This document shows positions 33,957 to 40,909 of a DNA stretch of 64,000 bases, piece after piece. How positions within the stretch are numbered: the first letter of the stretch is position 1; each line of letters starts with the position of its first letter. The stretch is from positions 496,001-560,000 of the forward strand of contig NZ_JASVWF010000003.1 in the NCBI RefSeq assembly GCF_030286555.1. Reading direction: 5' to 3'. Position numbers and translations under genes: made by a program. Below the pieces are notes generated by a model. It saw nothing but the letters and a program-made list of their open reading frames with translations, was not told the origin of the DNA and did no database searches. The DNA comes from Actinomycetospora termitidis. GTDB lineage: Bacteria; Actinomycetota; Actinomycetes; Mycobacteriales; Pseudonocardiaceae.

Positions 33957-35105
33957 TCAGCGGCCGGCCGGCCGACGCGGCAGCGTCAGGACCACCTCGG
34001 CGTCGCTGATGGAGATGCCGAGCGTCGTGCCTGCGCTCTTCCTCAACAATCGGGCGATGCGAGGGATGCCGCTACCCGCGCGAGTGGCCAACCCGCTCGC
34101 CACGACCCTGCCGTAGATGTAGGGATTCCTCGGGACGTGGACCCCAGACCGCATCGCCTCGGCGTCGACGCTGTTGGGTGGACGGCCGGGAGAGTGGACC
34201 TCGACGCGGTCGGAGAAGACCAGCACCCGCGTCGGGGCTGGGATCGTGTAATCGCGGTGGGTCAGCGCGTTGACCACAGCCTCCCGGAGAGCCGCTGCCG
34301 GTACGTCCTCGACCCGCTCGGGCTCGAAGCCCTCGATGCGGTGACCCGTGCGCAGGTAGAGCCCGAGGAACTGCACGAGCTGGTCGACGAGGGCGAAGAC
34401 GTTCCCGGTGAGGTCCTTGCGGTCAAGAAGGTCATCGCCGGGGTCCAGGCCTTCGTACACACCTGCGATCACCCCCGATGAGACGAGGTGGTCCTGCGGC
34501 CGCCGTCCGAACACGATCAGGCCACCGACCGTCGGGTGGTCACCGTCGCTCATCCGCCAAGCGCGCAGAATGCGGGCCGGGTCGTCCGACTCGTCCTCGA
34601 GCCCGACCTCGACCAGGTGCCGCCCGACCGACTCTGTGTCCAGGGTCGACAGACCGATCTGGCGGAGCGGGACCTCGTCGTAGAAAAGGTCCTGAGCTGC
34701 TTGGAACAGTCGCAGGAGCTCTTCGCGGCTCGCAGCCCGGCACCGGGCGCCCGAGCGGACGTAGTACTTCCCGTCTTTCGTCGAGTAGGGGCGTTGGTCG
34801 CCCCGCGCGACGTGCAGGACGACGACTCGCCGGCTGTCGATCTCGACGGTCTCAGGCACCACGGTTACGGGCGGGGAGCACCGCTGGAAGGCGACATCGT
34901 CGACCTGGAGCAACAACCTGTCGACGTCCGGGACACCGACCACCTCTCCGCCCTCCGCCACCCCGACCACGACCTGTCCACCGTCGGTGTTGGCGAAGCA
35001 GACGAAGTCCTTGGCGAGCTCCGCCGTGGCGCCGACCGCTTGCTTGAAGTCGGTGTGCGGGTCCTCCCAGCGAGCGATCTGCGCGCGCAGCTCGTCCGGT
35101 GTCAT
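33957..35105 (-). CDS. AlbA_2/Schlafen-type ATP-binding protein of an R-M island
   Basis: 382 aa; start ATG overlaps the methyltransferase stop in ATGA. N-terminal AlbA_2 (divergent AAA-like, Schlafen) domain: EDPHTDFKQAVGATAELAKDFVCFANTDGGQVVVGVAEGGEVVGV (E-x-x-x-x-D/E-FK), then YSTKDGKYYVRSGARCRAASREEL. C-terminal RecG-associated/HATPase-like part: ALREAVVNALTHRDYT with SDRVEVHSPGRPPNSV and RAGSGIPRIARLL. These proteins occur as regulators or effectors with mobile and defence genes. No DNA-methylation or nuclease motif is visible. Its coupling to mod implies a role in the same system, likely control or a second defence activity. Confidence 0.85.
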   Translation of the reverse strand: MTPDELRAQIARWEDPHTDFKQAVGATAELAKDFVCFANTDGGQVVVGVAEGGEVVGVPDVDRLLLQVDDVAFQRCSPPVTVVPETVEIDSRRVVVLHVARGDQRPYSTKDGKYYVRSGARCRAASREELLRLFQAAQDLFYDEVPLRQIGLSTLDTESVGRHLVEVGLEDESDDPARILRAWRMSDGDHPTVGGLIVFGRRPQDHLVSSGVIAGVYEGLDPGDDLLDRKDLTGNVFALVDQLVQFLGLYLRTGHRIEGFEPERVEDVPAAALREAVVNALTHRDYTIPAPTRVLVFSDRVEVHSPGRPPNSVDAEAMRSGVHVPRNPYIYGRVVASGLATRAGSGIPRIARLLRKSAGTTLGISISDAEVVLTLPRRPAGR

Positions 35106-40800: not shown

Positions 40801-40909
40801 CCTCCTCGATCTCGGGAAGGATCACACCCCGGTCGTCGAAGCGCCAATGTCGCGCGGGCTGCTCGTAGGGACGGTTCAGAATCGGATTCTCGATTGCCTG
40901 CCGTGCCAC
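37829..40909 (-). CDS. type III-like restriction endonuclease subunit (BPTD_3080-like Res)
   Basis: 1026 aa from GTG 40909; GGGAGGGG lies 6 nt upstream, which fixes the start. SF2 helicase: Walker A MATGSGKT (164-171), [11 protein letters not shown] (DEAH 307-310), and motif VI [11 protein letters not shown], with [26 protein letters not shown]. The middle has [22 protein letters not shown], a sequence I associate with the BPTD_3080 family of restriction enzymes. The C-terminal [17 protein letters not shown]...[12 protein letters not shown] is a PD-(D/E)xK-like nuclease site, although the last Lys is displaced (EVS in place of ExK). It is first in the operon with the methyltransferase and AlbA-type gene. 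Confidence 0.9.
   Translation of the reverse strand: [1026 protein letters not shown]

Follow-up and report, generated by a model that had tools for sequence, protein, structure and literature searches.

Type III restriction-modification (R-M) systems recognize an asymmetric site, act on two inverted sites and cleave approximately 25 bp away. Other modification-linked systems have been described: according to the accessible text of PMC8565338, HmaB is a 5-methylcytosine (m5C) methyltransferase and HmaC a DUF499 ATPase, and the accessible text of PMC12839542 presents proteins composed of a Schlafen RNase, a minimal histidine kinase and a winged helix-turn-helix (HTH) as back-up effectors of bacteriophage exclusion (BREX) and BREX-related systems. 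We analysed a 64,000-nt stretch of Actinomycetospora termitidis DNA (NZ_JASVWF010000003.1, positions 496,001-560,000; assembly GCF_030286555.1), referred to here as the window, which contains a three-gene island, here termed res, mod and albA (Table 1). Its res-mod pair is a known type III-like core of the BPTD_3080 family, as judged from profile matches, and the product of albA joins a Schlafen AlbA_2 domain to a GHKL ATPase domain, the latter a predicted minimal histidine kinase. We tentatively favour the interpretation that this is a horizontally acquired R-M island into which albA has been swapped as an exchangeable back-up effector.

The three genes and their leader are a single insertion just downstream of mfd. 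The 61 genomes of the relatives sample included 17 further members of the genus, and neither res nor albA was found in any of those 17, whereas mfd was present in 18/18 genus genomes when the window's own was counted. In 16/17 of the others, mfd was followed by host DNA lacking the island, and since their mfd joins host sequence from the other side of it, the island was delimited as one insertion; in L144-L147, the four closest relatives, 35-122 bp separated window position 41152 or 41164 from 33935-33968, with no leader between mfd and the following host sequence. Host sequence of the same neighbourhood resumed 357-1044 bp after mfd in L148-L150, a more distant window position (32.4-32.6 kb) followed mfd in L151-L159, and L160 was uninformative. 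Base composition also set the genes apart, with a GC content of 0.686 for albA, 0.613 for mod and 0.655 for res versus 0.73-0.77 in five neighbouring open reading frames (ORFs). The insertion holds the three genes only, with 24 bp between res and mod, and no integrase, and no direct duplication bracketing it occurred among the repeats listed (20 of 43 direct families and 25 of 53 inverted pairs, short and imperfect). A scan ill-suited to actinobacteria found no sigma-70-like site in the leader, and promoter-like and terminator-like signals were near chance (one versus 0.7 expected and four versus 3.4 expected, respectively). At its distal end, albA converges with a small host ORF, the two ending 3 bp apart (window 33953-33957).

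An earlier, sequence-only reading of the window had called three ORFs, all on the minus strand, which stand as called, and had placed the albA/HATPase gene in the same acquired block as a BPTD_3080-type R-M pair, which the insertion analysis confirms. Its remark that the island splits neighbouring mazG and mfd genes is only loosely right; in L144-L147 the genes next after mfd are a small ORF and one for an asparaginase, and mazG lies further on in the window. Curated families matched over their cut-offs, intact aligned motifs, the lower GC and the absence of the insertion from relatives together place the island above chance.

The product of res matched NF046055, the BPTD_3080 family restriction endonuclease model, with 1105.6 bits (cut-off 800) over positions 1-969 of 970, and Pfam ResIII with 35.8 bits; with mod as partner, the proposed BPTD_3080-type assignment of the pair was thereby upheld. 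In an alignment of eight sequences the helicase motifs were intact (Walker A at 8/9 positions; DEAH, SATP and VGRGLRR invariant), and near the C-terminus PDF, E and K residues were invariant in 8/8, with a below-cut-off TnsA_N match at 913-970 (E 0.0021). These features suggest a superfamily 2 (SF2) helicase whose C-terminal motif is PD-(D/E)XK-like and putatively that of a nuclease; an AlphaFold2 model of the full protein, at a predicted local distance difference test score of 50, did not confirm a nuclease fold, and a search of solved structures returned only a short RadD stretch (E 0.0072). Against classical type III Res models the scores were poor (21.4 bits for the best, PADLOC REase_III; 13.1 bits for PRK15483, cut-off 564), which by this measure sets res apart from the classical type III Res subunit. 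The mod product scored 916.9 bits against PADLOC MTase_III (PDLC03632) and 94.9 bits against Pfam N6_N4_Mtase, and matched the solved structures of EcoP15I Mod (4zcf) and of a second Mod (6k0w). Its DPPY motif (residue 162) lies ahead of DPTCGSGT (residue 454), the beta-class order, with both invariant in six sequences, and the enzyme is probably adenine-specific.

To place the pair among its relatives, 90 loci were assembled: nine from a class sample, one from the relatives sample and, out of at least 529 contig candidates that were confirmed, the best 80. Genes were called with a greedy longest-ORF script, which is rough in GC-rich DNA; it missed res in L036, L057 and L118, which a stop-to-stop scan recovered. 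The family is sparse, with NF046055 matched over its cut-off in 10/394 class genomes; among plasmids, 56 of 72,556 records contained matches, 36 of them with one place spanning at least 80% of res. In 70 of the 72 loci with both genes the order was res-mod, and in two it was mod-res; the count excludes 18 of the 90 loci lacking a mod over 100 bits, one of which, L077, has a 50-bit mod piece and 16 of which have less than 1.2 kb left past res. Nine further loci with both genes, taken from the order sample, added eight res-mod and one mod-res. The sequence-only reading had regarded res-before-mod as a departure from the norm; it is instead the rule in this family, and we rejected order as an atypical feature. 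The res closest to that of the window (67% identical; L039:7814-16353) has no detectable mod in the following 7 kb, where a DUF4238 gene is succeeded by one for a 1344-residue protein without Pfam match. In L044, L045, L085 and L103, res and/or mod are broken into several frames, apparently through decay or mis-sequencing.

The third position varies between loci. Of 62 further res-mod loci with sequence past mod (54 with at least 1.2 kb there and eight from the order sample), not one had an AlbA_2-HATPase gene directly after mod, a null that held with a profile built on 19 AlbA proteins; L040 and L046 come from a single genome and L253 duplicates L068, and the 70/72, 29/54 and 62 counts therefore include duplicates, two of them in the 62. 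In 29 of the 54 loci, a single cluster of UvrD-like genes was represented within a few genes downstream (same-strand genes, single linkage; opposite-strand UvrD genes in L252, L253 and L256 were left out); six scanned members were UvrD-like helicases, three actinobacterial ones of which end in a PD-(D/E)XK nuclease domain. Between or after the pair there also occurred a cluster of ATPases (seven loci; one member scanned, AAA_21/AAA_15), a four-locus GmrSD cluster (one member scanned), Fic, HEPN with RhuM, BRO-N, and a DUF5131 pair corresponding to PADLOC PDC-M41. We concluded, from these gene contents, that the third position is an exchangeable accessory slot on the res-mod core and not a fixed component. 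The UvrD-like helicase is the commonest companion (29 loci, e.g. L037, L048, L050, L085 and L105), with about 690 residues in many loci and 950-1014, including PD-(D/E)XK, in the scanned actinobacterial proteins.

The sequence-only reading had proposed an atypical three-part system, which proved only partly right. Because none of the other loci examined has an AlbA_2-HATPase gene directly after mod, a conserved three-part system was abandoned: no second triad was seen among these loci, and albA is not conserved with res-mod, an outcome which that reading had itself named as refuting its proposal. A dedicated restriction machine with the AlbA/GHKL protein as an obligatory third subunit would suit the tight coupling and order of the genes in the window; given the lack of a second such locus, and other res-mod pairs with different third genes or none evident, we consider it very improbable.

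AlbA_2 genes do occur near other res-mod pairs: one is the third gene past mod in L109 (rough gene calls), and matches also occur in L112 and, weakly, in L103 (more than 3.5 kb past mod). A DUF4062-HATPase_c_4 gene lies between res and mod in L105; it has only its C-terminal module in common with albA and contains no AlbA_2. Relative to whole-genome density in 57 genomes, three AlbA_2 genes in res-mod flanks compare with 0.21 expected (P ~0.001), or two (P ~0.02) once the L103 match, which scores under the Pfam cut-off, is set aside, making the enrichment suggestive and drawn from few loci. Here G264 was dropped as a duplicate and flank matches were assigned to contigs by coordinates, not names; AlbA profile A3 recovered L105, L109 and L112 and missed L103.

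The albA product matched SLFN_AlbA_2 with 83.1 bits (cut-off 25.3) and HATPase_c_4 with 48.4 bits (cut-off 26). In a profile alignment its residues E14, D19 and E51 aligned with E205, E210 and D248, given as the three-carboxylate triad of rSLFN13 in the accessible text of PMC5862951; enzyme activity of the protein is uncertain on this evidence. It ends after the HATPase domain, and a Pfam scan of it found no HTH; 7/18 aligned relatives carry a further 66-85 residues, unscanned for HTH, which are taken to be a winged helix. Chains of PDB 9ylu, 9ylv and 9ylx (CbCash) matched the AlbA profile (E 2.2e-10), possibly representing a solved prokaryotic Schlafen relative. The sequence-only reading had assigned the third gene as a regulator or an extra effector, a fair guess of which the first half has since been weakened by the missing C-terminal extension. 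As a regulator, albA would tune res and mod, for example on entering a new host, with AlbA_2 binding nucleic acid and GHKL sensing nucleotides; its position as coupled last gene of the operon and its two domain types would permit this, companion repressors of R-M systems are on record (accessible part of PMC12255303), and the D at the second triad position, unique among the 19 aligned proteins, suits a non-catalytic role. Lacking an HTH, and with the gene missing from related res-mod loci, regulation is less likely than a back-up effector despite the altered triad counting in its favour, and we regard it as unlikely.

Eighteen stretches around high-scoring AlbA matches were then compared, in 17 of which the script called the AlbA gene. 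A ParA/MinD-like ATPase adjoined it in 8/17 loci, and seven of ten scanned AlbA-neighbour proteins contained AAA_31. The resulting two-gene module of AlbA_2-HATPase and ParA/MinD-like AAA_31 ATPase (L203, L204, L207, L210, L211, L212, L214 and L215) had no name in the literature searched. In a phylum sample of 15 analysed stretches (short contig L236 left out), 14 held an AlbA gene, L270 holding none, and ten neighbour genes from six of the 14 loci were scanned. A TrlF-type ATPase was the partner in 3/14 (L263, L266 and L267, each matching NF045780 above its cut-off), accompanied in L263 by a DUF1156 methyltransferase and DUF499 and in L267 by a DrmD-like helicase (below cut-off); the partners were DUF6079 and an N6 methyltransferase in L271, and HEPN_Toprim_N in L264. 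On pNDM-KN an AlbA relative lies between hsdR-trlF and hsdS-AAA-hsdM, and in Yersinia ruckeri one adjoins TrlF; several other neighbourhoods contained no evident defence gene. AlbA relatives thus recur within type I R-M, DUF1156/DUF499 and DUF6079 operons, an arrangement that appears consistent with the back-up effector picture in the accessible text of PMC12839542. The same survey bears on a passenger reading, in which albA is a self-contained Schlafen-type gene whose function has no link to res-mod. Related proteins that lie apart from R-M genes or beside different partners, the lack of conservation with the res-mod core, and GC and third-codon GC values closer to the host than those of mod would all fit a passenger; the ATGA overlap of the mod stop with the albA start, the one common insertion and the recurrence of relatives in R-M-type operons do not, and this too is an unlikely account.

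Under the back-up effector interpretation, we reasoned that Mod would mark host DNA by methylation and that Res, an SF2 translocase whose C-terminus is PD-(D/E)XK-like, would cut unmarked incoming DNA. AlbA would be a translationally coupled accessory, its AlbA_2 nuclease-type domain gated by the GHKL nucleotide-binding domain, and would damage RNA, probably tRNA, once restriction was blocked or overcome; we infer these activities, the trigger and an abortive outcome. A guard-type variant, in which a Schlafen-GHKL protein without winged helix is triggered directly by inhibited or stalled Res-Mod in place of a TrlF or ParA-like partner, again leading to RNA damage and abortive infection, strikes us as unlikely. 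Several observations weigh against a back-up effector. Among the loci examined the window alone has AlbA_2-HATPase directly after mod, so that any functional coupling is putative, and the flank enrichment depends on two or three loci. The second triad position is E in 18/18 aligned relatives and D in albA alone, and the third, E in albA, is D in 13/18 relatives, with K, N or P in another three; the protein may therefore be a poor catalyst or an inactive one, and the unique D19 makes both this interpretation and the guard-type variant slightly less likely. The best AlbA matches were only about 30% identical in the 61-, 394- and 396-genome samples; the ParA-like (8/17) or TrlF (3/14) partner of many relatives is absent at the window locus; and third-codon GC does not clearly mark albA as foreign (z -1.0; seventh lowest in a rough set of 37 comparison ORFs that takes in res as well as spurious ORFs).

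Table 1. Features of the res-mod-albA insertion (window coordinates).
Feature	Position	Strand	Remarks
res, BPTD_3080 family restriction endonuclease	37829..40909	-	1026 aa, GTG start; NF046055, Pfam ResIII
res Walker A KMATGSGKT, residues 163-171	40397..40423	-	8/9 positions invariant, 8 sequences
res DEAHH motif, residues 307-311	39977..39991	-	invariant in 8/8 sequences
res putative nuclease motif Y926, P928-F930, E948, K954	38048..38134	-	residues invariant 8/8
mod, type III-like beta-class DNA methyltransferase	35102..37804	-	900 aa; PADLOC MTase_III, Pfam N6_N4_Mtase
mod catalytic motif DPPY, residues 162-165	37310..37321	-	invariant in 6/6 sequences
mod S-adenosylmethionine-binding motif DPTCGSGT, residues 454-461	36422..36445	-	invariant in 6/6 sequences
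albA, Schlafen AlbA_2-GHKL ATPase protein	33957..35105	-	382 aa, without C-terminal extension
albA SLFN_AlbA_2 domain, residues 14-125	34731..35066	-	Pfam; profile alignment to Schlafen chains
albA HATPase_c_4 (GHKL) domain, residues 292-374	33984..34232	-	Pfam
Leader between mfd and res, within insertion	40910..41141	unstranded	232 bp; absent from four closest relatives
Entire insertion	33954..41141	unstranded	~7.19 kb; three genes + leader; ends +/- tens of bases

If the back-up effector interpretation is correct, type III-like R-M cores can likewise be fitted with the back-up effectors described for BREX, and the BPTD_3080 family has an exchangeable third-gene slot (UvrD-like, OLD/AAA, GmrSD, Fic, HEPN or Schlafen), raising the question of whether one R-M core licenses different second-line effectors. 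The clean insertion and the empty site in relatives would provide a natural comparison with and without the island.

Compared with known systems, the locus agrees with the BPTD_3080 family in its full-length, over-cut-off res, its mod partner and its res-then-mod order, and differs in carrying an AlbA_2-HATPase third gene where relatives have a UvrD-like helicase or other accessory. It resembles classical type III R-M (EcoP15I) in the Mod match and in its Res, an apparent SF2 ATPase that has a nuclease-like motif near the C-terminus; it differs in that Res scores poorly against the classical models and the genes run res-mod. The three-gene helicase-methylase-ATPase plan is that of Hma (accessible text of PMC8565338), whose m5C methyltransferase and DUF499 domains are absent from the window genes by Pfam; membership of BREX or Hma was rejected, as a Pfam scan found no PglZ or DUF499 in the three genes of the insertion. 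DIP2311 of Corynebacterium diphtheriae (3lmm, solved, uncharacterised) has a 583-residue chain versus 382 in albA, with an overall root-mean-square deviation of 14.2. A res-mod and Schlafen-GHKL pairing was not described in the open literature searched, subscription papers and bioRxiv aside, including the accessible parts of PMC8565338, PMC7641849, PMC3710099, PMC12255303, PMC5862951 and PMC12839542. Like the BREX Schlafen RNase-kinase-winged HTH proteins, as presented in the accessible text of PMC12839542, albA combines AlbA_2 and GHKL domains in a modification-linked operon; unlike them, it is without the C-terminal extension, has an altered triad and sits in a type III-like R-M operon. Schlafen effectors beside BREX are already published, and the pairing of one with a type III-like res-mod core appears to be new.
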